In this document: in pieces, positions 29,079 to 60,886 of the stretch
Layout: every line of letters starts with the position of its first letter
Numbering within the stretch: position 1 is the stretch's first letter
Source: Pelomonas cellulosilytica
GTDB lineage: Bacteria > Pseudomonadota > Gammaproteobacteria > Burkholderiales > Burkholderiaceae_C
Assembly (NCBI RefSeq): GCF_021353265.1
Contig: NZ_JAJTWU010000010.1
Coordinates: 124,001-188,000, forward strand
Reading direction: 5' to 3'
Length of the DNA: 64,000 bases
The notes under the pieces: model-generated
What the model was told of the DNA's origin: nothing
The model's input: the letters and a program-made list of their open reading frames with translations, nothing else
The model's database searches: none
Translations under genes and position numbers: made by a program

Positions 29079-29699
29079 ATGAATACGTTGCGCCTCCTCG
29101 CCCTGGCTCTGCCGCTGGCGGCAGCCATCACGCCGGCCCACGCCGTCAAGTTCACGTTCGACAGTGACGACGAGGGCTGGCGGGCGACTCACGGCGGCAC
29201 GCAGGTCTGGCACAGCACCGGCGGCAACTCCGGCGGCTGGATCGAGACCGCCGACACGGACGACGGGGACGACTACGTCGTCGGTGCGCCGGCATCCGCG
29301 CTTGGCAACTGGTCGCACCTCATGGGCGGCACGCTGTCGTTCGACGTGCGCAACGTCAACGGTGCCGCGCCGAACTGGGCGCCGTTCGGCACGGTCTCGA
29401 TCAGCGGCGCGGGAAGGACTCTTTCGGCCGACATCGTCGCACCGGACAACCCGCCGGCCGACGGGCTGTGGCACACCTACACCGCCACCTTCAACACGGC
29501 CACCTGGGGGGCCGACCTGCCAACGGTGCTGGGCCAGGTGACGAGCTTCCAGCTGAAGCTGGAATCGCACGCGGGCGCCAGCGAAATCAACGGGCTCGAC
29601 AACGTGACGTTCAGCGCCGCCGTGCCTGAGCCCACATCGGCCGTGCTTCTTGGCCTGGGGCTGGCCGCGCTCGCCTGGCGCCGTCGCCGGGCGGCCTGA
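29079..29699 (+). CDS. PEP-CTERM protein with laminin-B-like domain
   Basis: 206-residue exported protein. A signal peptide (LRLLALALPLAAAITPAHA) is followed by a beta-rich domain resembling laminin B (domain IV): FTFDSDDEGW..., GWIETADTDDGDDYVV, LSFDVRNVN, FQLKLESHAGASEINGLDNV. It ends in a sorting tail with PEP motif, hydrophobic helix and arginine cluster (VPEPTSAVLLGLGLAALAWRRRRAA). PEP-CTERM tails are processed by an EpsH/XrtA-type exosortase, which is not in the window; the exosortase at 49 kb is of another type. Likely a surface or matrix protein. Confidence 0.9.
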   Translation: MNTLRLLALALPLAAAITPAHAVKFTFDSDDEGWRATHGGTQVWHSTGGNSGGWIETADTDDGDDYVVGAPASALGNWSHLMGGTLSFDVRNVNGAAPNWAPFGTVSISGAGRTLSADIVAPDNPPADGLWHTYTATFNTATWGADLPTVLGQVTSFQLKLESHAGASEINGLDNVTFSAAVPEPTSAVLLGLGLAALAWRRRRAA

Positions 29700-47387: not shown

Positions 47388-47463
47388 GCGCCCGTAGCTC
47401 AATGGATAGAGTACTGCCCTCCGAAGGCAGGGGTTGTTGGTTCGATCCCAACCGGGCGCACCA
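47388..47463 (+). tRNA. tRNA-Arg (anticodon CCG)
   Basis: Complete cloverleaf of 76 nt including encoded CCA. The acceptor stem is GCGCCCG/CGGGCGC with discriminator A. The D arm is GCTC-AATGGATA-GAGT, the anticodon arm CTGCC-CTCCGAA-GGCAG (anticodon CCG, reads CGG), and the T arm GTTGG-TTCGATC-CCAAC. A -10-like TAGAAT lies at 47372-47377. It is the left border of the accessory region. Confidence 0.97.
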
Positions 47464-47469
47464 GACACA

Positions 47470-47502
47470 AGCCATGCAAGTCTCTGACCTGCATGGCTTT
47501 TT
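47470..47502 (+). terminator. Intrinsic terminator after tRNA-Arg
   Basis: 9-bp stem AGCCATGCA/TGCATGGCT (47470-47478 and 47490-47498) with an 11-nt loop, running into TTTTT. It directly follows the tRNA, so it is probably the native terminator and marks how far the core sequence reaches. Confidence 0.85.
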
Positions 47503-47750
47503 GCCTTCTTAGCTCTGTGCGCTGGCTGTGTAGATAAGGCAATGTGGGCCAAAAGTGGGCCAAATGCTCTCGCGCGGTTGCTCGCGTTGGCGCCCCTTCA
47601 ATGGGACTGGCGGATTTCACGTTGAAGTGGCTCCGACAAATTAACTGAAGCCTTCGAGACCATCCGGACTCGCCAGTTCGCCGAGCGTGCTGCTGACGCG
47701 AAGCGTGAGCGAGCAATGTCTGCAGACCGGCGCTGTGACCCCATGCCAAT
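47503..47750. other. Left end of accessory region, no gene seen
   Basis: No supportable gene in about 250 bp after the tRNA terminator. It has a tandem 10-bp repeat GTGGGCCAAA at 47544-47553 and 47555-47564. No copy of the tRNA 3' end was found at the right end of the island. Confidence 0.5.
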
Positions 47751-47888
47751 GAAGCGGCTGTTCAGTCCTGCCAGTGCCCCGTTGACCAACAACTGTATGA
47801 CTCGCAGCGGGTGATCCTCGGGCGCGAGCCGAGTAAGCAGCATGGGCGTAGCGCCGGTCAGTCTTGGGTGAGCGCGCTCAACGGCCAA
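47751..47888 (-). pseudogene. IS5-family transposase N-terminal remnant
   Basis: A short frame on the minus strand reads LTRLAPEDHPLRVIQLLVNGALAGLNSRF, which resembles the N-terminus of IS5-type transposases (the conserved PxxHPLRxIR..VNxALxxL stretch). The resemblance ends near 47751 and the rest of the transposase is absent. Presumed dead insertion-sequence fragment. Confidence 0.45.
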
Positions 47889-48003
47889 GCGATGCTCGAC
47901 AGCTCAACCACGCAACGCGCAGGCTATGAGCGGCGGCGTGGCCTGGATGACGTCGACGCTCGTTAGAGGGAGAGTGCAATCCTTGCTGGCGCCCCTCCCG
48001 GGT

Positions 48004-48282
48004 TCAAGATGACCTAGCCGGATGGATACAGATCAGCGAAGTCGCTGGCAGGAGATCGTTTTCGCTCACCTGCAGGGCTTGCAGGACGTCGTAAAGCCGA
48101 ACGGAACGGTCTTTTGCGCCTTCGTCCGTCGCACGGAGCGTGACCAGTTCCTTTAGTTGAAGTGCGGCCTCGGTATCCGGTTCGGAAAGGTATGCGCCTA
48201 GATCCTGGCTTAGGAGGTTGCGCTGTTCCCACAGATCAGGCTCACCAGCTTCAACCGAGAGCGCTGCAAAAAAAGCCGGCAT
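48004..48282 (-). CDS. Hypothetical protein or gene fragment
   Basis: 92-residue open frame rich in Leu, Glu and Asp (LWEQRNLLSQDLGAYLSEPDTEAALQLKELVTLRATDEGAKDRSVRLYDVLQALQVSENDLLP), with an amphipathic, helical look. I do not recognise it. It has no clear ribosome site and stands alone in a decayed stretch, so it may be the C-terminal piece of a lost gene. Confidence 0.35.
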   Translation of the reverse strand: MPAFFAALSVEAGEPDLWEQRNLLSQDLGAYLSEPDTEAALQLKELVTLRATDEGAKDRSVRLYDVLQALQVSENDLLPATSLICIHPARSS

Positions 48283-48418
48283 GCTTTTGCCAGCTGACGC
48301 CGCGTAACGTGAATTTCCGATTTCGCCTTGCAGGGCAACGAGCTAAATCACTTTCGTCGTTGGACTACATGAATCCCGGCCGCGCCTCTGGTCGCGAGTT
48401 TGGCGTCTCCATGTGGTT

Positions 48419-48444
48419 ATTGCGATAAGAAGGATTATCGCAAT
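48419..48444. repeat. Perfect 10-bp inverted repeat
   Basis: ATTGCGATAA, 6-bp spacer GAAGGA, TTATCGCAAT. It is located about 95 bp beyond the 3' end of the exosortase cassette in otherwise empty DNA. With no T tract it looks more like an operator or mobile-element end than a terminator. Function unknown. Confidence 0.5.
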
Positions 48445-48537
48445 CGCATTTGACAGAGGCAGGGTTTTATCAAGTCCTCAGAGGGTTTCAGCATCTAGCT
48501 GACCAGCACACCGGCCCTGACGAGCCGTTGGTCCACC

Positions 48538-49182
48538 TCAAATCGCGTTAGCGGCCTGCATCATCTTCAGTTCTGGGGTTTGCGCGCTGGAGCAGGCGCG
48601 CATGATCAAAAGGCGGTGAAGGAGAAGAGATACGCCTATCGTCAGCACCCACGTGACGCCGGTTTCCATGAGGATGACCAGCCAAATGAGGCCCGACTGG
48701 TCCCGGTCGATGCCTACTTTCAGGTAGGCCTCGAGGAACACGATGTCGATCTTGCCGGCAATCAGAACGCCGGCATTCAGCACCGTCACGAGAAGTGCCG
48801 TCGCGCCTCCGACAAGCACGACCTTGGTTTTGGCTTTGAGCGACGGTGCCGGCAGCGCCAAGAGAATCGTCAGAATGATTGCGGACGGCACGACCAGGTG
48901 GTTCGAGCTGACACTCGTCACGGGGAGCCGACTGTGTCCACGAAGAAAAAGTGAATCCGACAAGCGAACGGGCTTGAGCAGGAAAGTCCTGACCTCGACC
49001 TCGTTGTCTTCGGGCCGCACAACTAGCGTGATGGCGGTCGCCGAGTGGATCGCCTCCGAAACGAAAGAGATGGCTGGCGCCAATTGCGCTACCAGGGAGT
49101 TGGCCGCTAAGTGGGCGAGGTGGACGCACAGCACCCATGCGGCGCCGAACCTGAATGCGTATCTCAAGGACATGCTCCTCAT
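48538..49182 (-). CDS. Exosortase-associated multi-pass membrane protein
   Basis: 214-residue membrane protein. An N-terminal helix (LRYAFRFGAAWVLCVHLAHLAANSLVAQ) is followed by a probable extracytoplasmic domain of about 50 residues (ISFVSEAIHSATAITLVVRPEDNEVEVRTFLLKPVRLSDSLFL), then three to four further helices (LVVPSAIILTILLALPAP, VVLVGGATALLVTVLNAGVLI, LIWLVILMETGVTWVLTIGVSLLL). It overlaps the exosortase stop by ATGA, so the two are translationally coupled. Proteins annotated as exosortase H-associated membrane proteins occur in this position elsewhere, as I recall. Role unknown; perhaps substrate presentation. Confidence 0.75.
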   Translation of the reverse strand: MRSMSLRYAFRFGAAWVLCVHLAHLAANSLVAQLAPAISFVSEAIHSATAITLVVRPEDNEVEVRTFLLKPVRLSDSLFLRGHSRLPVTSVSSNHLVVPSAIILTILLALPAPSLKAKTKVVLVGGATALLVTVLNAGVLIAGKIDIVFLEAYLKVGIDRDQSGLIWLVILMETGVTWVLTIGVSLLLHRLLIMRACSSAQTPELKMMQAANAI

Positions 49183-49688
49183 CCGGCTCTCATGCCAAGC
49201 GGCCGGATGCTGCTCATCCACAGCATGAAGGCCACCCCACAGATGAGCAGCATGGCCGTCGGCACGTAGAGGTCGTGCAGGTCGGAGAACGAATTCCGGT
49301 GGTCCTTGAAAACCACGAATAGGGCGACGATCCTGGCGACGTTTAGGACGTGGACCAGCACCAATCCCGACACCAGCCCAATCAGCTTAGGTGCTGCCCG
49401 AGATGGGAAGCATGCGACGGCGGCAAGCAACAGGAACAGCACGCCGGCGCCGTCGCACCCGCGCACAACTGCAAGGTAGATGCCGTCAGACACGAGCCCG
49501 TTGTCACGGATCCCGACCGAAGCATCAAGAACGCTATTGAGAACGGCAGCGCACGGCTGAAGTATCAGAACCTCGTGGACCCGTTTGAGCTGCGCGTCCG
49601 GCAGAAGGAAGTAGCACCAGTTCAGCAGGGCGTAGACCAGCACAAAGATGGCGCCCATCCGAACCGACTTCGCGCTGGTCAGCCGCAT
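49179..49688 (-). CDS. xrtH: Exosortase, XrtH-like (transpeptidase/protein sorting)
   Basis: 169-residue integral membrane cysteine protease of the exosortase/archaeosortase superfamily. The three invariant active-site positions are present in order and at membrane edges: Cys78 in VRGCDGAG, Arg119 in LNVARIVALF and His138 in DLHDLYVP. The small size, compared with about 280-500 aa for EpsH-type XrtA, and the partner with a VPTASEW tail point to the XrtH type, which serves IPTLxxWG-like C-terminal signals. The ATG at 49688 lies 2 bp after the substrate stop; the next gene overlaps its stop. The subtype assignment is inference; superfamily membership is strong. Confidence 0.88.
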   Translation of the reverse strand: MRLTSAKSVRMGAIFVLVYALLNWCYFLLPDAQLKRVHEVLILQPCAAVLNSVLDASVGIRDNGLVSDGIYLAVVRGCDGAGVLFLLLAAVACFPSRAAPKLIGLVSGLVLVHVLNVARIVALFVVFKDHRNSFSDLHDLYVPTAMLLICGVAFMLWMSSIRPLGMRAG

Positions 49689-49690
49689 GG

Positions 49691-50785
49691 TTAGCCTTGG
49701 CGGCCGCTGCGCCTTGCGACGTACAACGCCCCGGCGAAGAGCAACACACCGAAGATGAGCAACTGCCATTCGCTCGCCGTCGGCACGTTAGCTCCGGCAG
49801 TTCCAACTGGCCCACTGCTTCCAGAAGGCGGCGGCGGCACGTATTCAGACGTGAAACTATTGTTAAGGGAGTTTGGGTCTGGATTCTCCAGCGTCGAGAT
49901 TGACGCCGTTGCCTTCATCGCAGATGCCGCCGTCACGACGGGAATGCTAACTCCATAGTATCCGTCTGAGGCAATTCCCAAGGGAGGTATTGAAAACACA
50001 GCTTTTGGGAACGTTATCGTCATGCGATATCTCCCGTCGGCACCTTGGGTAAGCTGCGATAGTGTGGGAACCGATCCTGTCCCTTCGTAAGTATCACTCC
50101 CCGTGATGTCAGTCCCGCCGTTCCCAAGCTGTGATGGCTTAATTGAAAACCCCGAATCAGCTTCCAAAGTCACCGCAAGCACGAAAGAACCCGAGGGCCT
50201 GACGGCGCTTAGGTTGTTGACCCGAGCATTGACAACGTAGCCTGAAAACCCATAAGTCGCCTTGTCCACAACAGTGAATGTGGACAAATCTGCTTCGAGC
50301 CCCGGCAGGAACCGAATAGTTGCAGCCTGATCTGGAATACTGGCGGGAACTGAGCTAGCTGCCAAGCAGTTACGGTAAATCAATTCCTGACGCGGAGCCA
50401 ACTTAATGTAATGAACTGTTCCGGACCCATATGCAAGCTTGTCAAGCGGCCCAACTAAACTCGCCAAACTTGAACCAAAATAAAGCTTTGCGTCATAGAA
50501 ATTCTGTGGGGCAACCTCCAGATAACCCACTTCACCGGCCGAATATGAATACCAAGCATTATACCCATATGTCATCAAGGGAGTTGGCTGAACCCTTGGC
50601 GCGGAACAATCAACGACATTTTCCACTTGCTGATTCGTATTGAGACGAGTGGTAATGGTAACCGGGCCGTTTCCGCCGGCGTGAAATATTGGCGCCCGGT
50701 TAGCAAAAGTCGAATTCGTCTGAGCACTGGCTATTATTGCCAAGCCAAACAATGCAATGCCAAAAGTTTTTCTGACCAATTTCAC
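49691..50785 (-). CDS. Surface protein with VPTASEW (IPTL-CTERM-like) sorting signal
   Basis: 364-residue exported protein. The N-terminal signal peptide (LVRKTFGIALFGLAIIASAQ) is followed by a beta-rich extracellular body of about 290 residues with no family I know. A proline/glycine linker (about 316-333, PPPPSGSSGPVGTAGA) leads to a C-terminal tripartite sorting tail: motif VPTASEW at 334-340, hydrophobic helix QLLIFGVLLFAGALYVA, and a basic end RRSGRQG. That is the design of IPTL-CTERM proteins cut and anchored by XrtH-type exosortases, and such an exosortase is the very next gene (2 bp). Base composition is less GC-rich than the chromosome around it, consistent with transfer. Confidence 0.85.
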   Translation of the reverse strand: MKLVRKTFGIALFGLAIIASAQTNSTFANRAPIFHAGGNGPVTITTRLNTNQQVENVVDCSAPRVQPTPLMTYGYNAWYSYSAGEVGYLEVAPQNFYDAKLYFGSSLASLVGPLDKLAYGSGTVHYIKLAPRQELIYRNCLAASSVPASIPDQAATIRFLPGLEADLSTFTVVDKATYGFSGYVVNARVNNLSAVRPSGSFVLAVTLEADSGFSIKPSQLGNGGTDITGSDTYEGTGSVPTLSQLTQGADGRYRMTITFPKAVFSIPPLGIASDGYYGVSIPVVTAASAMKATASISTLENPDPNSLNNSFTSEYVPPPPSGSSGPVGTAGANVPTASEWQLLIFGVLLFAGALYVARRSGRQG

Positions 50786-50868
50786 AGACGTCTCCCTGAC
50801 GTTGAAAAAAATATGCCGTCAGAGTACGTTGCCGTCGTGTCGGTGAGTAGTGCTATGTCCCCGCTTTT

Positions 50869-50884
50869 TAGTCCAATAGGACTA
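50869..50884. promoter_or_regulatory. Palindrome upstream of sorting-signal protein gene
   Basis: Perfect inverted repeat TAGTCCAATAGGACTA (6-bp arms, 4-bp centre) in the 194-bp gap upstream of the surface-protein gene, 84 bp from its start. It has no T tract, so it is a possible operator rather than terminator. Confidence 0.35.
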
Positions 50885-50979
50885 GAGCCCACCATGGACG
50901 AACACCAAGAACTAGGGATCGCTCGGCCTACGAATAATCATTCAACGTCACCTACCGGTTGCCAAGCACTTCCAATTCC

Positions 50980-52608
50980 TCACGGCGCTATCCAAGCAGC
51001 GTTGAAGTCTGACGTTGCGTCAGTATTGAATCTTTCTGTTCGCCAGCCCAACAATACGCTGTCACCCGTAGCAACAAGCATTGGCTCCTTGTTGGTGGGT
51101 GACATCCCGCTACCGTAGAACACCCCGCGGACAGGGTTTGGCAGACCGACCATGGCCCCTGCGGCGGTCATGCGTACGAATTGCGTCGCGGTCAGGTTCT
51201 GAGCGTATGGATCAATATCGACCCAAGACACCGCAAACCCTGAAGTAGTCGAGGTGACAGCGGCTCTCGCAATCGGACCCATGTTCGGAGTTGCTAAAGT
51301 AGAAGCTGGGCTGCACAAATTGGTCGTACAGCTTGCCGCGGCAACTTGCTTGTAGGCGCCGATTTCTCCACTCCACACGACGAGAATCTCGCCAGAAGGC
51401 CGGACGGCGACGGCCGAAGTGTCGAATTCGCTACTGGTCAGAGTGCCAAGCGTACGCGCGTCCTTCCAAGGCGATGAACCTTCGCGAACCGACAGGCAGG
51501 TTGTAAATGTCGTGATCGCAGCTGTAGCGACTGCCAGTGGCTTGACCGTTGACGACGTGGTCTGTCGTATGGATCCGGTGCACTCGCTTGCACGCCAGGC
51601 CAACGCCACCAGCCCGGAGCTCATCGAGGACTGAACCTCAGTTATAGCGGCTGCCGTTGCCAGCATGGTTGGCTGCCCCTGCGGCAGGCTTGCAGCAGGG
51701 GCGGTCATCAGCTTCGTCGAAGATCCAACTCGTTCAAGCCACGCCAAGCCTGACTGACCGGAGGTGTCGCCACCCCACGCGGTCAGGTCGTCAATGGTTC
51801 CTTTAGAAACGTGACGCAACTGACTTGCTTGCCAACCGGCACCGGCACGGACAGCACGCCAGAGAGCTGAACTGCCCACTTCGCCGGTTCCCGCGCGCCA
51901 CGTCTGCACCAGCCAGAAGATTTCAGGGGAACCGTCGGCATTGAAACGCACCAACAGCTTGTCCACGCGCGCTGCGCTCGTGTCAGGGAGGGTGAAGACT
52001 TCGGTGACCGCCGAGACGCCACCAGCACCGAACGGCGCCGATCTAATACGCCACTCAGTTCCATTGGCCGCCATTGCATATTCGACCCATGCTGCGATGG
52101 CACCACCTGCCTGTTCACTGGCAGCAATGGCCAAGCCGCGGCCCTCTACGAGTCCGCCAGCTGAAATGCTCGCCGTCCCGACGTTCCAGGCAGTTTGGCT
52201 AACGCTGGCGAGCTTCAGGCGGCCTGTGGATGTAGCTCCGCCGGGCGTACGCTTGTCGAGCTCCACCCAGCCGGCATAGGCATTCGAACCAGTGGCGGCC
52301 AGACGGATGGCGCTGCTTTCGGCAATGAGATTGCTGACCAACCACCGCGATGAACCGAGGGAGAATAGGCTGGCAGAGCTTGGCACAGCGTCGGCGTAGA
52401 CCAAGTCGGTCGGCATGGGGGCCGTCGGCGTGGTGCCAGAGGGCACGCCTGCTGGTTGGCCGGCGGAGGGATTGATTTCGGATGGATTCGCACTCGAACC
52501 CGTTGACGGCGTCGCCGTAGGCGCACCTTCCCCACCACCACAGCCCTGAAGCATTAACGAGGCCGCGAGCACAAGGCTCAGCAGTCTGAACGTTAGGTTA
52601 CTTTTCAT
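50980..52608 (-). CDS. Lipoprotein of unknown function, beta-propeller-like
   Basis: 542-residue exported lipoprotein: signal peptide RLLSLVLAASLML with lipobox LQGC (Cys23), then CGGGE and a Ser/Thr/Pro-rich linker (about 27-65). The body has recurring patterns such as AYAGWVELDK, GAIAAWVEYA, SGLAWLERV and EILVVWSGE, spaced roughly 45-90 residues apart, suggesting a repeated beta-propeller blade fold. It is upstream of and co-directional with the surface-protein/exosortase genes, separated by 194 bp with a palindrome, so it may have its own promoter. It lacks a sorting tail itself. No named family recognised. Confidence 0.65.
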   Translation of the reverse strand: MKSNLTFRLLSLVLAASLMLQGCGGGEGAPTATPSTGSSANPSEINPSAGQPAGVPSGTTPTAPMPTDLVYADAVPSSASLFSLGSSRWLVSNLIAESSAIRLAATGSNAYAGWVELDKRTPGGATSTGRLKLASVSQTAWNVGTASISAGGLVEGRGLAIAASEQAGGAIAAWVEYAMAANGTEWRIRSAPFGAGGVSAVTEVFTLPDTSAARVDKLLVRFNADGSPEIFWLVQTWRAGTGEVGSSALWRAVRAGAGWQASQLRHVSKGTIDDLTAWGGDTSGQSGLAWLERVGSSTKLMTAPAASLPQGQPTMLATAAAITEVQSSMSSGLVALAWRASECTGSIRQTTSSTVKPLAVATAAITTFTTCLSVREGSSPWKDARTLGTLTSSEFDTSAVAVRPSGEILVVWSGEIGAYKQVAAASCTTNLCSPASTLATPNMGPIARAAVTSTTSGFAVSWVDIDPYAQNLTATQFVRMTAAGAMVGLPNPVRGVFYGSGMSPTNKEPMLVATGDSVLLGWRTERFNTDATSDFNAAWIAP

Positions 52609-52951
52609 CGCGCTGCTTCATACATCTTGGACCCCTAAAGGTGAAATGGTCGACAAGCCCGGCTAAAGCGGTGTGACGCGAAGGCTCCACGGGTGAGCCG
52701 ATCAGCTCATGATCGGGAGGCCCTCGGAGATTCGGCGCGAACTTGGAGGGGGTGCAGGAAATGTTGACCCTGTCCCAGGATCCCGTACCGTTCAGGTCAG
52801 TCTGCAAAACCGCGTCCGCAACGAGCACTAAAGCCGCCAGCGGGGTTGGCACTTCGTGATGTGCAAATTGCGAGCTCTCTGAGCTCCGTTTTTGCCCTCG
52901 GACGCGAGGTTTCTAGGCTCTCGGCGGCTGATTGCCGCACGGTGAGCGCAC
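52609..52951. other. 343-bp gap, no gene seen
   Basis: Between the lipoprotein start and an IS5 fragment. It should hold the lipoprotein promoter (minus strand). Terminal inverted repeats for the IS fragment were looked for at its lower end and not recognised. Confidence 0.5.
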
Positions 52952-53323
52952 TCATCCCTGCGCGCCCAGGATTTGTCGCCGAGCCATCCACAGATTGCTG
53001 AGGGCAAACAGCATCGTCAGTCGCGCGGTGTTCTTCGCCAAGCCGCGATAGCGGACCTTGGCGTAGCCGAACTGCTGCTTCACGACACGGAACGGGTGCT
53101 CTACCTTGGCCCGTACGCTGCCCTTGAACTGCTCGACCTGCTCCAGCAACCGATCTGACCGGTACCTCGGGTCCAGTGCCTTGCGCTTGCCCGGCTTGAG
53201 CGCCACATGCCATTGCGTCTTGCAGTCTTTGAGCTCCTCGCGCTTGGCCACACCCCGGTAGCCGGCGTCGGCGAACGCGACGATTTCTTCGCCGCGATCG
53301 AGCTCACCTGGCACGCGGTCGAC
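52952..53323 (-). pseudogene. IS5-family transposase C-terminal remnant
   Basis: The last about 123 codons of an IS5-type DDE transposase: a central strand segment EEIVAFADAGYRGVAKREEL, which includes the second catalytic Asp region, and the catalytic-Glu region VEHPFRVVKQQFGYAKVRYRGLAKNTARLTMLFALSNLWMARRQ. The N-terminal part is missing; the fragment begins where the hipA 3' end lies, so the two are joined by an old deletion or insertion. It cannot transpose by itself. Confidence 0.85.
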
Positions 53324-54617
53324 GCGATTTGGGCGCTGCCGGCCCGAGAATGACGGGCGTAGTCGCGGCGTTCTCGCGGTACTCTCGATGCGCTGAAAAC
53401 GCGGCCGCAGTGACCGCGATGTCTGCGCCCGAGATCCCTGCCTTCCGTGCAAGATCTGCCCACCCGTCGACCGCGCTGGCCACGTCCTCAACAATGGCAG
53501 CACCGCGGTCCGTCGTAAGGCCATAGAACTCGGCCGTCGTCAGCACCGTGGCCAGATTCGGTCGGTTGTCCGAGTCGTCAATGTTCAGCACGTGCTCGGC
53601 CTTGTCGATGTTTGGATTGACGTCGAAAGCAGGCGAAAGCCGCCAGCCGTCCTTGCCGAGCAGGAAGCCATGGTTTCGGAGGTGATCGTCGCGATTGCCG
53701 ACCGCGACGTTGAAAGCGACGCGGCGAAAGAGTTGTTGCAGGTCGCTGGCCACGTGCGCCGGATCTCCGGACGTCCTCAGGAACTGGGCCAATTCCAGGT
53801 AGCTGACGCCCTCGCTCTGGTCTCGACGCAGCAGCGTCATGGCGGAGGCATAGAAGCGTCGCTTGCCTTCAGTGCGATCAAATCTTTGGACGCAGAAGGT
53901 GTGGAACTCGTTGTTCAGTTGGACCACCTTGGCGGGCGGGACATCGATTCCAGCCTTGTCGGCCATCTTGTGGACCACCGCTTCCCAGGCGCCGATGTCG
54001 CGGTCATCGTCGCGTGACGGGAACTTGCCGATCCACAGCGCGCCATCCTGCTCCGAGAAGTTTGCCTTGGGCCGGGCCCCTCCCAACGAGGCACCTGGCG
54101 CTACGAGCACCGCGAGCCAGCGGCGCAGTGCGTCCAGGTCGTCGATGCGTTTGCTCGTCAGAAGCGTGGCGACGGACTCCAGCTCGCGCAGGCTCGTCAC
54201 TGGTGGCGCTGCCATCTTCTCGTCGCCGAGAAATTCTTCGGTGCCTTCCATTCGGAACCGCAGCGCGCCCTGCCGTGTGAAGTCCTGGACACCGATGAGG
54301 AAGTCCCATGCGTGCAGCGTTCGAGGTTTCTGATCGGCATCTTTTGCCTGAAGCGCCTCGCGCCTCTTCATCAGCGTCTGGCCCCATCGGTCCGGCGACG
54401 AGTCCAGGAAGATGCCGAAGTTCCCGGCCTCTGGCTTCGGGAAGAAGGGTTGTTCATCCAGAGAAAGGTCCGGATCGAGCATGAAAGCCTTCGCGTCCTT
54501 GATCCACGCCTTGTCGTAGCTGAAGCGAACCTGACCCCGGTCATGGGACAGCGTGCCGACGCGACGCATTTCGTCCAGGTCGCTATCGAGCCAGACCTCC
54601 AGATCCGATCCGCTCAT
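53304..54617 (-). CDS. hipA: HipA-family serine/threonine kinase toxin
   Basis: 437-residue HipA-like kinase; in E. coli HipA phosphorylates glutamyl-tRNA synthetase and induces persistence. It has a HipA N-domain (LDEQPFFPKPEAGNFGIFLDSSPDRWG), a glycine-rich nucleotide loop in ASLGGARPKANF, the catalytic-loop aspartates in VAVGNRDDHLRNHGFLLGKDG, and a metal-binding Asp in LSPAFDVNPNI. All core residues look intact. Its start overlaps the hipB stop (ATGA). The last roughly 10 residues (GPAAPKSRRPRAR) read into the IS5 fragment, so the native C-terminus was probably replaced. Confidence 0.9.
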   Translation of the reverse strand: MSGSDLEVWLDSDLDEMRRVGTLSHDRGQVRFSYDKAWIKDAKAFMLDPDLSLDEQPFFPKPEAGNFGIFLDSSPDRWGQTLMKRREALQAKDADQKPRTLHAWDFLIGVQDFTRQGALRFRMEGTEEFLGDEKMAAPPVTSLRELESVATLLTSKRIDDLDALRRWLAVLVAPGASLGGARPKANFSEQDGALWIGKFPSRDDDRDIGAWEAVVHKMADKAGIDVPPAKVVQLNNEFHTFCVQRFDRTEGKRRFYASAMTLLRRDQSEGVSYLELAQFLRTSGDPAHVASDLQQLFRRVAFNVAVGNRDDHLRNHGFLLGKDGWRLSPAFDVNPNIDKAEHVLNIDDSDNRPNLATVLTTAEFYGLTTDRGAAIVEDVASAVDGWADLARKAGISGADIAVTAAAFSAHREYRENAATTPVILGPAAPKSRRPRAR

Positions 54618-54955
54618 TTCGCGCTCTCACGCTTGATGGCCGCTGCAGCACGTCCGGCCTTCGGCGGGGAATCCATCCGGAGATCCTGTAGCTTCCTCCC
54701 GACCTGATCGTCGGCTGCCACCGTGTCGATATCCTTGTCTAAGCCGAGGACAGCAAGCACTCGCAGATACGTGCCCAGCGTTGCACCGGGATCTCCAGCT
54801 TCGACGTTGTACAACGAGGTGCGGGAAATGCCTGCTCGCTGCGCCACCGTGATGGTCGTCAGCTTCCGGCGTAATCGGGCAAGACGCACGCGCTCACCCA
54901 GCGCAGCGAGCATGCGCTGCTCCTGGGGGAATATGACGGGAGGTTTGCTGGGCAT
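54614..54955 (-). CDS. hipB: HipB-like XRE antitoxin
   Basis: 113-residue DNA-binding antitoxin with a helix-turn-helix (RVRLARLRRKLTTITVAQRAGISRTSLYNVEAGDPGATLGTYLRVLAVLGL), which in this family both represses the operon and restrains HipA. I chose the ATG at 54955 because it leaves the strong inverted repeat at 54983-55024 upstream as an operator; in-frame ATGs at 54988 and 55111 would put that repeat inside the gene. No Shine-Dalgarno is evident for this start. It overlaps hipA by 4 nt. Confidence 0.85.
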   Translation of the reverse strand: MPSKPPVIFPQEQRMLAALGERVRLARLRRKLTTITVAQRAGISRTSLYNVEAGDPGATLGTYLRVLAVLGLDKDIDTVAADDQVGRKLQDLRMDSPPKAGRAAAAIKRESAK

Positions 54956-54982
54956 TGGTTCGGCCGGAATTGGCGAAACGTT

Positions 54983-55024
54983 CACCATTATGGACAGAAA
55001 GAAAGGTTTTTGTCCAAAATGGTG
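54983..55024. promoter_or_regulatory. Inverted-repeat operator upstream of hipBA
   Basis: Two 14-bp arms, CACCATTATGGACA (54983-54996) and TGTCCAAAATGGTG (55011-55024), are inverted repeats with one mismatch, separated by 14 bp. The placement 28-70 bp upstream of the hipB start fits HipB autorepression. Inferred, not shown. Confidence 0.6.
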
Positions 55025-55204
55025 ATGCAACCAGGCTGTATCAAAGAGGAACGCTTTCGAGGCCAGTGCGCTGGACGGCCCCAACCTTTCACAGTTTCTC
55101 GTCAGAGCCATCCCTCGGTGCAGGCTTACTGAAGCATCCCGAGGCAGCCGTGGCCCGCGAGAGCCCTCTTCCCGGAGAGCCCAGTCTGATAGTGGAGCCC
55201 GCCA

Positions 55205-55513
55205 TCACGCGCCATCTGGCTTTTGCCAAAGCGCGATGACCAGCAGGCTATGGATGACCCACAGCACGGCGCCCTCATTGACCTCGTCCTCATCCATCAA
55301 CCCGTGCGCGAACTCGTTGCGCAGGTTCATGCCACGCGGGTCGGCAAAAACGACCTTCAGGTAAAGGGCAAGCCGTGGACCGAACGGTCCAAGTGAAGCG
55401 ACTAGGTCTGGGTTGAACAAGATGTCTCCCATGTTGATCGAGACGCTGACGCCCGGCACGGTGCCGGCGGGCTTCGTTGTCGGACGCCCGACAAGATCGA
55501 CCATCGACCGCAA
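55205..55513 (-). pseudogene. DUF4209/HEPN-like C-terminal fragment
   Basis: A 102-codon frame ending with GPRLALYLKVVFADPRGMNLRNEFAHGLMDEDEVNEGAVLWVIHSLLVIALW, the C-terminal end of DUF4209-type proteins, including the R-N-x3-H pattern typical of HEPN nucleases (RNEFAHG). The N-terminal several hundred residues are missing. Probably a relic of a defence-type gene. Confidence 0.5.
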
Positions 55514-55722
55514 AGCAGAGCGTCGCTGACGTACGGCGCAACCGCCGGCCAGTGCTATCGCGCCGTGGAAAGACTAGTTTTTCTTGACGTAGTGCTTGGT
55601 AGTTGGTGAGACGCTGATAGCCGGACGCGCTGTTGCACTTCGGGGCATCAATGCACCCCGTACATCCCGCGACGAACCACGGTGTCTCGCACGGTCCCAG
55701 CCCGCTAACGATCCGTTTCAAC

Positions 55723-56817
55723 TCAATTGCGGATGGAGGCAGCGTCCGCGGGACTGGCGCTCAGCTCCAGCCCACCCTCACGCGGTGTGACGACCAAACC
55801 ATGCAGTCTTGCCACGGCGTGCGCGAAGCCTTCGTTGTCACCGGTCCGATAGGACCCGCTGATGCGCAGAGACCGCAACGCCGTGGAATCAGCGAGCGCG
55901 ATCTGCACCTTGCTGTAGCGGTTCATGTCGGCGATGGCGTCCGGCAGCGGGGTGTCGTCCAGGATGGCGAAGCCTCGCTGCCACGCGAGCAGCCGGTCAA
56001 GCTGGGGGCGGTCCACGCGGGCTTGTTCTGCTCCCTGGCGCAGCGTGCCGGCCGAATGGCCCACGCGCAGGCGCTCGCCCGGCGCCATGACCACAGGAGC
56101 GTCGGTCGCGCTCTGCATGGCGCCTCCTGCGCGTTTCACGATCACTTGCCCCTCGATGAGCGTCACGTTGAACGCTTCACCCGCCGACTCCCCGGGGGGC
56201 GTGGATCGAACCAGGAAGGCTGTTCCCGTGGCGACAACCTCGGAGTCTGTCACGCTGACGACGAATGGCCGGCCGGCGTCCTTGGCGACCTCAAACAGCG
56301 CTTCGCCGTGTTTGACCGTCACGCTCCGCTGCGAGTCGGTCAGCCTGACCCGAGTCTCGGTCGACGTGTTCAGCGTCATGCGGCTACCGTCGGCCAGAAC
56401 GATCACCCGCTGCTCACCGACGCCGGTGCTGTACGTGTCACCCGGCCAGAGGATCACGGCAAACACCACGGCGAGGCACAGGGTCGTGAGCGCCAGTGCC
56501 GCGTGCCCAGCGCGACTGCCCCATGAGCCCGCACGGTGTGGCGGATCGCTCACGGCTGCCTGGATCTGTGCTCGAGTCAGGCCGCCCACTTCCTGCCAGG
56601 TGTCCGTGCAGCGCTCGAAGGCCAGGCGGTGCGCCGCCGACTGGGCCTGCCACGCCAGGCATTCGCGCTCCATCGCCCGCGACCGACTATGACTATGCAG
56701 CCGGGTGACCCACACGGAGGCCTCGGCCAAGATCTCGCGCGTCACGAGCGGCTTGTCGCTTGCCCCCTGTCTGCCGGAGGCATCTAACGGTTGCACGGCT
56801 ACCAGCCTTCCATCCAC
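55723..56817 (-). CDS. FecR-type anti-sigma/sigma regulator
   Basis: 364-residue membrane regulator. The N-terminal cytoplasmic part with ILAEASVWVTRLHS...AWQAQSAAHRLAFERC matches the FecR N-terminal domain (DUF4880). One transmembrane helix (about 104-124, ALALTTLCLAVVFAVILW) follows, then the periplasmic FecR domain (LADGSRMTLNTSTETRVRLTDSQRSVTVKHGEALFEVA) and a C-terminal STN-like domain of about 75 residues. It would transmit a signal from an outer-membrane receptor to the sigma factor. It overlaps the fecI 3' end by 19 bp. No FecA-type receptor lies downstream. Confidence 0.88.
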   Translation of the reverse strand: MDGRLVAVQPLDASGRQGASDKPLVTREILAEASVWVTRLHSHSRSRAMERECLAWQAQSAAHRLAFERCTDTWQEVGGLTRAQIQAAVSDPPHRAGSWGSRAGHAALALTTLCLAVVFAVILWPGDTYSTGVGEQRVIVLADGSRMTLNTSTETRVRLTDSQRSVTVKHGEALFEVAKDAGRPFVVSVTDSEVVATGTAFLVRSTPPGESAGEAFNVTLIEGQVIVKRAGGAMQSATDAPVVMAPGERLRVGHSAGTLRQGAEQARVDRPQLDRLLAWQRGFAILDDTPLPDAIADMNRYSKVQIALADSTALRSLRISGSYRTGDNEGFAHAVARLHGLVVTPREGGLELSASPADAASIRN

Positions 56818-57293
56818 TCCGTCAGCCGCAGTGTCGCCTTGGCAAGGTGTTGGTGCACGGTCGCGACGCCGATGCCGTAGCGATCGGCGATCTCAGCAGG
56901 AGTCAGGCCATCGATACGGTTCGCGATGAAGATTTCTCGCGTCCGCTCGGTCAACCGGCCCACCCCGAGCGTCAGGCGCGCCATGCGCTCTCTGGCCAGC
57001 ACCACAGCTTCTATGGACGGGGTGGTGTCGATCAGCAGCACGTCCTCCAGCAGGACATGCTCGCCACGTCCCACGGCCGTGCGATGAACGTCGATGGACA
57101 GGTTCAGCGCCGCCCGCATCAGAAACGCCTCAGGCTGGTCGACGGGTTGCCGCTCGTCCTCGTAGCGGACCAGGCGCAGCCATGCCTCCTGCACCAGGTC
57201 CTCGGCCTCGTGCTCGGTCTGCCCACGACGTTGCAAAGCGCCGCGGACCCTCGCGAAGACGTCCTGCCAGTTCTTCATGAGCCCGGCCGACAT
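56799..57293 (-). CDS. ECF sigma factor, FecI-like
   Basis: 164-residue sigma-70-family factor with region 2 (AEDLVQEAWLRLVRYEDER...FLMRAALNLSIDVHR) and region 4 (LTERTREIFIANRIDGLTPAEIADRYGIGVATVHQHLAKATLRL), the FecI layout used for siderophore uptake genes. Start at 57293 (alternative 57278), directly after the stop of the transposase-like gene. It forms an operon with the fecR-like gene, but the receptor gene usually found third is absent from the window. Confidence 0.9.
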   Translation of the reverse strand: MSAGLMKNWQDVFARVRGALQRRGQTEHEAEDLVQEAWLRLVRYEDERQPVDQPEAFLMRAALNLSIDVHRTAVGRGEHVLLEDVLLIDTTPSIEAVVLARERMARLTLGVGRLTERTREIFIANRIDGLTPAEIADRYGIGVATVHQHLAKATLRLTEWMEGW

Positions 57294-57298
57294 GGCAG

Positions 57299-57892
57299 TC
57301 AGGCCGCTCGGACCAGGACGCGGGGCGCAGAGCTGACGCCATACGGCGCCGGCTTGGCGCGCTCCCAGTAGTCGGCCAGCAGGTCCCGGTCCGCGCGCTG
57401 GAACGTCAGCGCGAGGAAGTCGGCTGCCGCGGAGTGCTCAGCGAACGGGCCGCACTTCTTCGCCGCACGCGACATGCGGTCCTGCAGGCGCTTCGCGGCG
57501 GCATCCGTCCAGCGGATGGCCTGCCGCATGCGATGGCTGATGGCGCCGGACTCGCGAAGCTCGGCCACGGTTCGCTCGCAGAGCTTGGGGTCCCGGGCCT
57601 TCATGGCGGCGGCAACGCCGGCGTCGGCGGCCAACGCGTGAACCCTCTCCAACCCGCGGTCGTGGAGGTTCTCAGCGATGCGCTGTGCCGTCTCAGGGCC
57701 TTCGTCACGCCAGGCCCCCAACACCTGGAACTGACCATCGGTGAACAGGCCGAGCGCCCAGTGCCATTCGGCGGCGCTGGACGCACCTTTGATCCGCATC
57801 GGAAGCCAGAGCTTGCCGAACTGCACAGCCGTGTAGCGGCAGCAGAGTGCGCTGCCGAACCAGTCGGAGGAATCCCAGAAGAAGTAGGACAT
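57299..57892 (-). CDS. Transposase-like protein, mutator/IS256-type resemblance
   Basis: 197-residue protein. The middle reads EWHWALGLFTDGQFQVLGAWRDEGPETAQRIAENLHDRGLERVHALAADAGVAAAMKA, like the catalytic core region of mutator-type transposases. RMRQAIRWTDAAAKRLQDRMSRAAKKCGPF resembles their C-terminal helical part. It is too short for an active transposase (normally about 400 aa) and has no visible terminal repeats, so it is either a remnant or a domesticated regulator. It is divergent from an XRE gene over a cluster of palindromes, which hints at a functional pair. Family assignment is weak. Confidence 0.4.
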   Translation of the reverse strand: MSYFFWDSSDWFGSALCCRYTAVQFGKLWLPMRIKGASSAAEWHWALGLFTDGQFQVLGAWRDEGPETAQRIAENLHDRGLERVHALAADAGVAAAMKARDPKLCERTVAELRESGAISHRMRQAIRWTDAAAKRLQDRMSRAAKKCGPFAEHSAAADFLALTFQRADRDLLADYWERAKPAPYGVSSAPRVLVRAA

Positions 57893-57962
57893 AGGTCACT
57901 CCATGCGGATCAGTGCGAAGCCAAGCTGAACCCTCTTGAGGTCAGGCCTAAGCAACCGCGAG

Positions 57963-58012
57963 CTACGAAATTCGTAGTAGTCGCATTCTACGAAAGCTAC
58001 GACTCTCGTAGC
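57963..58012. promoter_or_regulatory. CTACGA palindrome cluster, operator of XRE gene
   Basis: Three related elements within 50 bp: a perfect palindrome CTACGAAATTCGTAG (57963-57977), a half site CTACGAA (57988-57994), and a perfect palindrome GCTACGACTCTCGTAGC (57996-58012), the last ending 3 bp before the XRE start codon. Spaced inverted repeats of this kind are typical of XRE autoregulator operators. Confidence 0.65.
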
Positions 58013-58015
58013 AAC

Positions 58016-58330
58016 ATGTCTGCGACAAATGAGGGCTCATCGGATGTTTGGCGCAAGCGCCTGAAAGAGGCGAGGCTCGCGCTTGGCATGAGCCAGAAGC
58101 AGTTGGGTATCGAAGCAGGGCTGGACGAGTTCGTGGCGTCAACCAGAATCAACAGGTACGAGCAAGGCGTTCACGCCCCAGACTTCCAGATTGCGATGCG
58201 CTTGGCAGAGGTGCTTCAGGTTCCGGTGGCATTCCTCTACTGCGATGCTGACGAGATGGCGCAGATGATCTTGGCCTTCCATCGAGCATCTAAGCCGCAG
58301 AGACGGCAGGCGCTGGCTGCTTTGCAATAA
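58016..58330 (+). CDS. XRE-family transcriptional regulator
   Basis: 104-residue repressor-like protein with one helix-turn-helix (RLKEARLALGMSQKQLGIEAGLDEFVASTRINRYEQGVHAPDFQIAMRLAEVLQVPVAFLY) and a short C-terminal helical extension. There is no Shine-Dalgarno upstream because the CTACGA operator palindromes reach to the start codon; translation may be leaderless. Divergent from the transposase-like gene. Its target is probably its own promoter region. Confidence 0.85.
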   Translation: MSATNEGSSDVWRKRLKEARLALGMSQKQLGIEAGLDEFVASTRINRYEQGVHAPDFQIAMRLAEVLQVPVAFLYCDADEMAQMILAFHRASKPQRRQALAALQ

Positions 58331-58595
58331 CCCGAGTAGCGCGCTGGTGCCGCCCACGGAACCGGAGGTAGAAGCCCCACAGCTTCGGCATGGGCGGTAA
58401 TTCAGGGAAGCAGACGATCGGACTGCGGCAAAGCCGCCGCAGGTGCCGCGCTGACTTTGGGGCGGGCAGGCGCGACATGTCCTGGACCAAGAGGTTGAGC
58501 GCCGTGCCGCCCTTCATCACGAACACAGGCGTCTCAAACACCGCTGGTTCGATGTCCAGCAAGAGCTGGACTGTTCGAACGTAGGCCTCGTTCAC
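58290..58595 (-). pseudogene. abiEii toxin, truncated
   Basis: The first about 44 residues match AbiEii, the nucleotidyltransferase toxin of the type IV AbiE system: NEAYVRTVQLLLDIEPAVFETPVFVMKGGTALNLLVQDM. The GG(S/T) motif of the transferase is there, but the sequence then switches to unrelated RLPAPKSARHLRRLC..., and the DxD-containing catalytic part and the other 200-plus residues are missing. It overlaps the abiEi stop by 4 nt, as in intact operons. Toxin function is certainly lost. Confidence 0.8.
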
Positions 58596-59275
58596 GTCGG
58601 CCGCTTCAGGTTGAGCCGCTCGCCGGACTTGGTGGTGGAAACCCAGCGACGGCCTCCGCCCAGTCGCTCGCTGTGCTTGCGCGCAAGACCAGCCCAGGAC
58701 AGGCCCAGCTCCTCAGCCAGCGCGTGAGCCAGCCTTGCGACCTTGATCCGTTTGAGATGGGCAAGGAGTTCTTCCAGCACGGGCAGGCGCAGCGCTCGTG
58801 CGCTCTCGACCAGGTGACGAGTCTCTTCGAGTTCCTGTCCCTTGCCCACATCGCTCAGCAGTTCGAGCAGCGCCCGTTCCGGCGTGGAGACAAGCACGTC
58901 AGACCGCCCCCCAGGCAAGGCCGCCAAGCCAACATCGGCTTGCAGCCCTGGATCAAAGAGATGGGTCGCCTGGTAGTCCGCCGGGAAGACCGATGTGAAC
59001 CAGGTCGGCAGCGATGCCGACTTGTCACCCCAGAGGATCAGTCGATCTTTGGCGGCGAGGTTGTGCCGCACCCCTCGCCAGGCAAGCGCCGTTTTTCCGC
59101 CGACGTGCAGACCGGGTATGGAGTCCGCCAAGCGAGCCAAGCTGGCATCGCGGCCCAGCTGGTCCCCTGGGAGGATGTAGACGCCATGTCCGAGGCGCTC
59201 AAGCCAGCCATCTTGAGCAAGCCTTGACACCTGCTTGGCAGTCAGCCCACGCGCCTGTAGCCATGTGGTCGGCAT
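58592..59275 (-). CDS. AbiEi-type antitoxin
   Basis: 227-residue antitoxin/repressor of the AbiE type IV toxin-antitoxin family. The N-terminal winged-helix (TTWLQARGLTAKQVSRLAQDGWLERLGHGVYILPGD) is followed by the AbiEi C-terminal domain (HVGGKTALAWRGVRHNLAAKDRLILWGDKSASLPTWFTSVFP ... STPERALLELLSDV). The ATG at 59275 has GAGG 8 bp upstream; an ATG at 59338 lacks one. The partner toxin gene downstream is broken, so this is an antitoxin without a toxin. Confidence 0.85.
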   Translation of the reverse strand: MPTTWLQARGLTAKQVSRLAQDGWLERLGHGVYILPGDQLGRDASLARLADSIPGLHVGGKTALAWRGVRHNLAAKDRLILWGDKSASLPTWFTSVFPADYQATHLFDPGLQADVGLAALPGGRSDVLVSTPERALLELLSDVGKGQELEETRHLVESARALRLPVLEELLAHLKRIKVARLAHALAEELGLSWAGLARKHSERLGGGRRWVSTTKSGERLNLKRPT

Positions 59276-59359
59276 GGGCGAACCTCGCGGCACATCCGGC
59301 AGCAGCTCGCGGAATATAAAGGATGGCGAAGTTCCCATTTAAGGGGTATTTTATGGATT

Positions 59360-59490
59360 TTTTTATTCCGACACTAACTTAGATCGGCCGCTAAGCCGGA
59401 TGTTGAAGTCAAGTCGTTGCCTGCACCACTGCATATAAATATCGCTAAGATTCTCGCCAAACGGTCAATAAGCGAACATTTTTATTCCGA
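59360..59490. repeat. Direct repeat TTTTTATTCCGA
   Basis: The 12-mer occurs at 59360-59371 and 59479-59490, both in an AT-rich stretch between the AbiEi gene and the integrase fragment. It may be a relic of recombination near the island's right end. No third copy was noticed at the left end. Confidence 0.35.
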
Positions 59491-59534
59491 AGCCCGTTAC
59501 GGTGGCTACACCGACACGGCCGATCCTGGTCAAC

Positions 59535-59798
59535 CTAAAGAGCGAGCTTCGCCAGCGCCTCCGCCGCATGATCCGCGCGCAGGTGCCCGTAGTGCTTTTC
59601 GATCATTTCCACGCACGTCCCACTCAGCTGCGCGACCGTCAGAAGATCGAGGCCGCCGACAACTAGATCCGTGATCGTGGAATGCAGGAGGGTGTACAGG
59701 ACCGTCCCCGCTGGCAGGCCGGCCGCGGCAGCGGCAGCCTTCATGGGCTTCTTCCAGGCGTCCTTGTTCCAGGCCTTCCCACTGGCTTGAGCGAACAA
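59535..59798 (-). pseudogene. Tyrosine recombinase (integrase) C-terminal fragment
   Basis: 87-codon frame with the integrase C-terminal pattern: VLYTLLHSTITDLVVGGLDLLTVAQLSGTCVEMIEKHYGHLRADHAAEALAKLAL. The nucleophile Tyr is present (KHYGHL), but the Arg of the usual RHS/T box is replaced by Leu (LLHST), and the N-terminal three quarters of the protein are missing. It is a decayed integrase marking the right part of the island. Confidence 0.8.
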
Positions 59799-60151
59799 CG
59801 GTGCAGCGGGTCCATGGCAATGCTTACGGAATGACGTCTATCGCCTCTTTCGACGGTGGAGCGGGTGGTTTCATGGACGTCGGCGGCGGTCACGACCCGT
59901 TCGCTTGAAGGCGCAGCCAGGACTGCCGCCGGTGGAAGTCCCGCAGGTGCTGCTCACCCAACGCGCCGTCGTTCGCGTTCACAGGGACGCAGTACAGCGG
60001 ATCGCGATGACGGCGCCGCATCACGTCCTCCTACGAAAGTCTCGGCGCCCGCCGACGCCGAGCGCGGCAGCAACCGCCTAGATTGGGCGTTAGTCCAGCC
60101 GCGGCCCTTTTGCAGCGGCGGATCGTCCCGCCACCTGCTAGGAGCCCTGCC
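59799..60151. other. 353-bp gap, no gene seen
   Basis: This is the transition from island to core sequence. GC content rises again after about 59,850. A search for a repeat of the tRNA-Arg 3' end found nothing convincing. The promoter of the DUF4142 gene should lie in the last 150 bp. Confidence 0.5.
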
Positions 60152-60661
60152 ATGCGCACCCCTCAACGATTCATGAGCCTAACCGTGCTCGTCGCCGCCG
60201 CAGTGTTCGCCGGCCATGCGCACGCCCGTTCCGACGCCTCGTTCATGAAGGAGGCGGCCCATGCCGGCGCCGCCGAGATCGAGGCCAGCAAGCTGGCGTC
60301 CACGAAGGCGAAGAGCGCCGACGTGAAGTCGTTCGCCGACGCGATGGTGACGGACCACACCAAGGTGGCCGACGAGCTGAAGGCGCTGGCCGCGTCGAAG
60401 AAGGTCAAGCTGCCCGACGGTCCGTCGATGACGCAGAAGGCTGAGCTCAAGCTCATCGACACCGGCGACAACGACAAGTTCGACGAACGCTATGCCAAGC
60501 ACTTCGGGGTGAAGGCGCACGAGGACACGATCAAGCTATTCGAGGACGCCGCCAAGAACGCCAAGGACGCCGAAGTGAAGGCCTGGGCCGAGAAGACGCT
60601 GCCGGGCCTGCGGCACCACCTCGAGATGGCCCAGGCGTTGAGTGTGGCGCCAAAGAAGTAA
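60152..60661 (+). CDS. DUF4142 periplasmic protein
   Basis: 169-residue exported helical protein: signal peptide (LTVLVAAAVFAGHAHA), then the ferritin-like four-helix DUF4142 pattern SFMKEAAHAGAAEIEASKLASTKAKSADVKSFADAMVTDHTKVADELKALA ... LPGLRHHLEMAQAL. Members are periplasmic, often linked to stress. The start has an AGGAG 8 bp upstream. A small lipoprotein gene starts 3 bp after the stop, so the two probably form an operon. Confidence 0.9.
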   Translation: MRTPQRFMSLTVLVAAAVFAGHAHARSDASFMKEAAHAGAAEIEASKLASTKAKSADVKSFADAMVTDHTKVADELKALAASKKVKLPDGPSMTQKAELKLIDTGDNDKFDERYAKHFGVKAHEDTIKLFEDAAKNAKDAEVKAWAEKTLPGLRHHLEMAQALSVAPKK

Positions 60662-60664
60662 GCC

Positions 60665-60886
60665 ATGAAGGCGTGCCCCCTTCGGTGGCGTCTCGCGTGG
60701 GTAGCGCTGGCCGTCGCCGGCGCCGCAACGCTTGCCGCATGCCAGCGCGAGTTGCCCGTCGCGCAGGCCGCCACAGCTCAGGCCCCGACACCCCCCTCGC
60801 CGCCCGCCTCGCCAGCGTCGTCCACCCCGGCGTTCCCGGCGGCTTCCGGCCCGGCCTCAGCGCCGCCGTCCAGCCCAATCCGCTGA
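60665..60886 (+). CDS. Small proline-rich lipoprotein
   Basis: 73-residue protein with a signal peptide and lipobox LAAC (TLAACQRELPVAQ) followed by a low-complexity Pro/Ala/Ser tail. It may be exported and lipid-anchored. No family recognised. It directly follows the DUF4142 gene. Confidence 0.6.
   Translation: MKACPLRWRLAWVALAVAGAATLAACQRELPVAQAATAQAPTPPSPPASPASSTPAFPAASGPASAPPSSPIR

Follow-up and report, generated by a model that had tools for sequence, protein, structure and literature searches.

When an exosortase gene lies between genes for a protein with a sorting-type tail and a membrane protein, all close to a transfer RNA (tRNA) gene on what looks like a mobile island, the question arises whether the locus is a sorting unit in its own right or one part of a larger, genome-wide system. 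Such a locus is found in a 64,000-nucleotide stretch of Pelomonas cellulosilytica DNA (contig NZ_JAJTWU010000010.1, positions 124,001 to 188,000), referred to here as the window, and an original prediction read it as an XrtH-like exosortase travelling with a membrane partner and a single dedicated substrate. Here we confirm the observation itself and find that this first interpretation is partly supported: in our judgement the locus is probably a dedicated sorting module of XrtM-like type, acquired on an island and orthogonal to the two other exosortases of the genome. The genes concerned are the following.

49691..50785, minus strand: putative single exosortase substrate; 364 amino acids, GTG start; signal peptide, beta-rich body, VPTASEW, helix and RRSGRQG tail
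49179..49688, minus strand: exosortase of the XrtM-like clade; 169 amino acids; Cys78/Arg119/His138
48538..49182, minus strand: XrtM-clade membrane partner; several transmembrane segments and a central hydrophilic segment; 214 amino acids from the ATG of the ATGA overlap
50980..52608, minus strand: lipoprotein; 542 amino acids; LQGC lipobox read by eye; beta-rich

The three tightly packed minus-strand genes, and the lipoprotein gene just upstream of them at a distance of about 195 bp, were recovered as open reading frames (ORFs) where they had been predicted. A 2-bp gap separates substrate from exosortase, so that the tail-bearing protein is indeed the neighbour of the enzyme, and an ATGA overlap joins exosortase to partner; the mechanically called partner ORF extends to 49221, giving 227 rather than 214 amino acids. 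The substrate carries the expected N-terminal signal peptide and C-terminal VPTASEW motif, helix and basic tail, its C-terminus being VPTASEWQLLIFGVLLFAGALYVARRSGRQG; these parts were read from the sequence without a signal-peptide predictor. Promoter and terminator scans returned signal no better than that of shuffled sequence.

The enzyme is an exosortase. It scores 44.1 bits against the superfamily model TIGR04178 of NCBIfam (cut-off 23), and the possibility raised with the prediction, that the frame at 49179-49688 would match no exosortase model, did not materialise. The Cys, Arg and His residues conserved in exosortases are present here, as foreseen, as Cys78, Arg119 and His138, and they are invariant in all 55 exosortases that we aligned. 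The sequence had no match in the PDB. Among the subtype models the best is XrtM (TIGR04300; 85.5 bits, cut-off 125), followed by XrtH (TIGR04177; 57.3 bits, cut-off 86) and by XrtY and XrtX (53.8 bits each). A sub-threshold XrtM score is common in this group, since only two of the 24 genomes with a match (E <= 1e-10, among 369 genomes of the class) pass the cut-off; given this and its own score, we call the enzyme XrtM-like and not a member of XrtM.

Phylogeny points the same way. The tree holds 55 of 56 sequences: 28 from a search of family genomes, 26 from the class search (the window included) and one from Roseateles puraquae, a truncated 81-residue R. puraquae exosortase having been omitted. 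The family search yielded 60 places, of which loci were obtained for 30 and later also for L087, the other 29 lying outside the tree. The window exosortase falls within a clade of 18 rows with support of 100/97. The subtype scan of relatives covered ten proteins, two of which (L072 and L085) were wrong frames without a match; for each of the seven clade enzymes read in the correct frame XrtM was the top-scoring model, and one enzyme exceeded its cut-off.

The membrane partner supplies a second line of evidence on subtype. Against a profile of six XrtM-adjacent partners from which the window was excluded, the window partner scores 51.5 bits over nearly its full length (50.5 bits in the clade-wide locus scan), and 41.3 bits against a wider 17-protein profile, while the best of 2000 shuffles reached 11.4 bits and every other one of the 393 window ORFs at most 6.1. 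With the six-protein profile, a partner of this type (hereafter M-type) is found beside 18 of 18 clade enzymes and beside none of the 37 tree rows outside the clade; conversely, an XrtH_assoc-type partner stands beside 30 of those 37 rows and none of the 18, no locus has both, and the 30 rows lie across a 100/97 branch from the window enzyme. The XrtH_assoc profile behind this count was a two-step construction, and not all of its matches are strong, those at L058 and L087 reaching about 31 bits. The window partner scores -3.3 bits against an XrtH_assoc profile, and has no match at E <= 10 in NCBIfam or in Pfam, the latter searched with this one partner. None of six M-type partners tested passes an NCBIfam cut-off, one reaching 16.4 bits with a signal peptidase model whose cut-off is 216; an XrtH partner scanned alongside for comparison matched NF041730 at 171.6 bits. 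On score, partner and tree position the XrtH label is rejected, and the subtype assigned in the original prediction is thus not borne out.

It appears from these comparisons that the M-type partners form a family which tracks the XrtM-like clade and for which NCBIfam has no model; the match between clade and partner, together with the missing NCBIfam match for the six tested, makes this a concrete annotation to add. Apart from the window, the family occurs at L011-L014, L016, L022, L042-L050, L052 and L064 (not L015), beside every XrtM-like clade member. The M-type partners may be distant homologues of XrtH_assoc, a relation to which a profile comparison gave only 25% probability across 50 columns. 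The partner had been described as a protein of four to five transmembrane segments: it does have several, their exact number varying with the threshold of a crude hydropathy count (three strict, six loose), as it does for the seven M-type partners together with the window included (two to four strict, four to seven loose).

Is the pair dedicated? By the tail patterns that we used, one such tail is present in a genome that holds 59 PEP-CTERM matches over cut-off, and on this basis the enzyme and its substrate look dedicated to each other, as far as those patterns reach. The strict DNA pattern [VIM]PTxx(E/Q)W occurs at three places in the genome, and only at the substrate do a helix and a basic tail come after it. 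No IPTL-CTERM match in the genome exceeds the cut-off, the substrate included; in the genome-wide scan the substrate itself scores 14.6 bits and four other places 11.5-12.1, and when VP, IP or LP followed by W was sought near the frame ends of these four, one short frame was found, lacking a helix. The prediction of a single dedicated substrate therefore holds in so far as no other VPTxxEW tail or over-cut-off IPTL-CTERM protein is present, and is weakened by the low score of the substrate and its closeness to those of the four places. The circumstance named as speaking against it, many IPTL-CTERM proteins and a second XrtH in the same genome, was not encountered. The genome does encode two further exosortases (TIGR04178), which we label XrtA-like and XrtB-like from their length and an EpsI-like neighbour rather than from subtype models, and which presumably serve the PEP-CTERM proteins. 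One of the 59 PEP-CTERM matches lies in the window itself (about 29619-29687, plus strand, 34.3 bits).

The relatives place the pair in context. Among the 17 clade relatives, 11 encode a protein with a P..xW motif, helix and basic tail at most two genes from the enzyme, so that a neighbouring substrate is usual, and three of these 11 have the order substrate, exosortase, partner seen in the window. No such protein was found near the enzyme in five (L068, L069, L070, L071 and L131). L084 was excluded from the eleven, as its motif seems to lie inside a longer frame, and gene calls for the relatives come from a simple gene caller that placed several frames wrongly. In L084 (about 1-1556) this longer frame, close to an XrtM-like enzyme, seems to have an IPTL-like motif and a helix at its start, an arrangement that recalls the 'midcut' type named in NCBIfam for XrtH. 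The rarity implied by the original prediction is not supported, in view of these counts and of the fact that dedicated systems have already been named (PMC3237569).

The alternative that survives best is that the enzyme has more targets than the tail patterns detect, and so does not belong to a one-substrate system. There is wide variation among the tails encoded near clade enzymes (IPTLSEWG, IPFLPxWA, VPLPPWS, APLPVWA), the genome scans relied on IPTL-CTERM and one strict pattern, and three clade loci (L075, L076, L086) have two tail-bearing frames each. Set against this are the lack of any further over-cut-off IPTL-CTERM match in the genome, the four lower-scoring places without a motif-helix-basic end and the two other strict-pattern places without a helix, and we regard additional targets as unlikely, if the least unlikely of the alternatives.

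The setting of the cassette was also predicted, as an island beside a tRNA gene, and this is supported. Its landmarks are as follows.

47388..47463, plus strand: tRNA-Arg(CCG), marking the left edge of the island
47464..60073, no strand: genomic island of about 12.6 kb with an approximate right end; the six relatives compared lack it at the orthologous site
59535..59798, minus strand: integrase-like C-terminal remnant, 87 amino acids; phrog_1 integrase at E = 0.0021 (weak), no Pfam match

Stretches around tRNA-Arg(CCG) were fetched from six relatives. In all six, similarity stops at window positions 47463-47469, at or just past the tRNA end, and the cassette, sought in each stretch, has no match in any. 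Similarity resumes at 60074-60881 in three of them, near the integrase-like remnant; the other three have no right flank within the stretch obtained, one of which is just 4 kb long. The distance from tRNA to right flank is about 770 bp in G030, 2 kb in R. puraquae and 5 kb in G399, and the spot is therefore variable, with G030 the nearest to an empty site. The guanine-plus-cytosine (GC) fraction per kilobase is 0.50-0.63 across most of the island, compared with 0.665-0.716 at 44-47 kb, and rises to 0.66-0.68 at 56-58 kb, around the sigma factor and FecR genes. In a search of the window for exact copies of the tRNA 3' end, 14 to 38 bases long, nothing was found besides the tRNA itself, so that attR was not identified. 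Together these observations suggest that an island at tRNA-Arg brought in the cassette and that units of this kind can move between related bacteria.

The island carries other genes besides. A HipA-like kinase and an adjoining helix-turn-helix protein (53304-54617 and 54614-55111) are a probable HipBA toxin-antitoxin pair, and a piece of a DDE transposase (52952-53524) lies between the lipoprotein and HipA genes. An extracytoplasmic function (ECF) sigma factor and FecR pair (55723-57293) has higher GC than its neighbours. An AbiEi antitoxin with both domains over cut-off (58290-59338) adjoins a 101-amino-acid frame with a sub-threshold AbiEii match, and this abortive-infection pair looks eroded.

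Of 20 genomes from the genus, two have the substrate: the one that holds the window and that of R. puraquae, which was also the single relative found in a scan of genome contigs. Among 399 family genomes, 58 have an exosortase match at E <= 1e-5, the only close relative besides the window's own being that of R. puraquae (65% identity; next best 36%). The partner, as a single-sequence query against 399 genomes of the order, found itself only. The lipoprotein, searched in 399 order genomes with its own included and at most three candidates scored per genome, had one other match, of 77 N-terminal residues (5.4e-5); as the R. puraquae protein did not come up, this order sample is not exhaustive. 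A search of plasmids gave one weak exosortase match, on a Methylomonas plasmid (34.2%, E = 3e-4), and none for substrate, lipoprotein or partner.

The R. puraquae copy lies on a different contig from the tRNA site of that genome, between Tn3-family transposases (PF01526). Its lipoprotein (70% identity) and substrate (60%) frames are open; the exosortase match ends at residue 85, the rest of the enzyme and the partner were not found in the 16-kb locus, and about 120 bp beyond the truncation lies the start of a Tn3-family element whose inverted repeats are 107 bp long. The open substrate frame next to a truncated enzyme leaves room for another processor or for no processing; an XrtH of R. puraquae that passes its cut-off (136.9 bits, L087 6343-7041) might serve the orphan substrate. 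Between the two species, non-synonymous change is 0.27 for the substrate and 0.19 for the lipoprotein, and synonymous change 0.75 and 0.71; the Ka/Ks ratio of about 0.1 is rough because synonymous sites are saturated. The conservation of substrate and lipoprotein with low non-synonymous change indicates that the cassette is more than a chance assembly.

These data bear directly on a second alternative, that of a decaying cassette whose genes are intact but whose module is out of use on an eroding island. The integrase-like remnant, the transposase and AbiEii pieces and the truncated R. puraquae copy fit this idea; the four frames of the window are nevertheless all open, the Cys/Arg/His triad is intact and the low non-synonymous change argues for constraint, albeit constraint that reflects the shared past and not the present. 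We consider decay improbable. Least credible of all is an XrtH/IPTL-CTERM system whose other substrates have been lost: although the tail is weakly IPTL-CTERM-like and XrtH is the second-best model, the XrtH score falls short of its cut-off, the partner is of the other family and the tree groups the enzyme with XrtM-like rows.

Several points also weigh against our preferred reading of a dedicated XrtM-like module. The substrate tail is below the cut-offs of both tail models, IPTL-CTERM (PF18203; 15.3 bits, cut-off 20.8) and midcut_by_XrtH (22.2 bits, cut-off 45), and in the genome-wide scan it leads the next place (12.1 bits) by only 2.5 bits. A profile built from 12 of the 14 tails seen near clade enzymes, the two of L086 being left out, ranks it first among the 393 ORFs, yet at E = 0.025, with the next at 0.065. 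The exosortase itself is below the XrtM cut-off and forms a long branch (2.18) whose placement the tree program flags as unsure, and the R. puraquae substrate frame has stayed open despite its truncated enzyme.

Substrate body and lipoprotein had been described as belonging to no recognised family, and in NCBIfam, Pfam and PHROGs neither has a match over cut-off. Structure models built from two-row alignments are poor, with mean predicted local distance difference test (pLDDT) values of 46.5 for the substrate and 40.8 for the lipoprotein. The low-confidence substrate model has a beta-rich appearance with terminal helices; it matched no PDB fold at E <= 0.001, nor did the sequence match any PDB entry. 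The lipoprotein model is a beta-meander, best at residues 150-280. Its sequence found two PDB matches at chance level (E = 0.71), and the top 15 structural matches of the model have template-modelling (TM) scores of 0.13-0.31, most being proteins that we take to be beta-propellers, such as paraoxonases and sialidases. The lipoprotein is thus possibly a beta-propeller. It accompanies the cassette in both known loci, and as two loci are too few we do not call it a component.

A model for how such a module might operate can be drawn from general knowledge of exosortases, which is also summarised in PMC12188702. After export through Sec, the C-terminal helix would keep the substrate anchored in the inner membrane. 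With the aid of the membrane partner, the exosortase would attack at or near the VPTASEW motif through Cys78; removal of the helix and basic tail there, after Sec export and by enzyme and partner together, is the most likely course of events. The substrate would then be passed to a surface location or released, where the lipoprotein may work with it. The module would act orthogonally to the two other exosortases, the presumed owners of the PEP-CTERM proteins, and would have been gained on the island at tRNA-Arg. One may tentatively go further, to a proposal that we find more doubtful than not: that the XrtM-like exosortases constitute a sorting machine of their own, set apart by obligate membrane partners of an undescribed family, and that the form on this island is a one-substrate unit, both transferable and orthogonal. 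Together with the lipoprotein, which would be an outer-membrane propeller that travels along, this unit would equip a cell that already runs two PEP-CTERM systems with a new surface complex. As a set of one enzyme, one substrate and one partner, the cassette offers a simple test bed for exosortase chemistry, and it also suits the question of whether small exosortases need the neighbouring membrane protein.

How does the cassette compare with known systems? No paper on XrtM or XrtH exosortases was found in a literature search judged by titles and the beginnings of abstracts; a predicted IPTL-CTERM domain has been described on an S-layer protein (PMC8671808). With XrtM (TIGR04300) the window shares its best model, a clade with XrtM-scoring enzymes and the same association of enzyme, partner and nearby tail protein, but it differs in the sub-threshold score and long branch, and in a substrate and lipoprotein that our searches found only here and in R. 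puraquae, bar one short N-terminal lipoprotein match. With exosortase H (TIGR04177), IPTL-CTERM and XrtH_assoc (NF041730) it shares the superfamily, a related tail and a small exosortase with a membrane partner, whereas its partner family differs, its XrtH score is below the cut-off and its genome has no over-cut-off IPTL-CTERM. In Flavobacterium johnsoniae, deletion of either XrtF or its adjacent partner lowered colonisation and biofilm formation (PMC10936215); that system likewise joins an exosortase to a neighbouring associated protein, but is of the XrtF subtype and has unknown targets. A further parallel is with the systems termed 'dedicated', in which a sorting enzyme has a single target in the genome, a term applied to sortase, exosortase and rhombosortase alike (Haft and Varghese 2011, PMC3237569); in single-target genomes, the GlyGly-CTERM protein is encoded at most one gene from the rhombosortase in 16 of 21 cases. 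The window cassette shares with these a single genome target encoded next door to its enzyme, within the tail patterns used, and differs in its enzyme subtype, its extra partner and its location on an island. It is thus a further example of the known dedicated sorting systems and not a new type.

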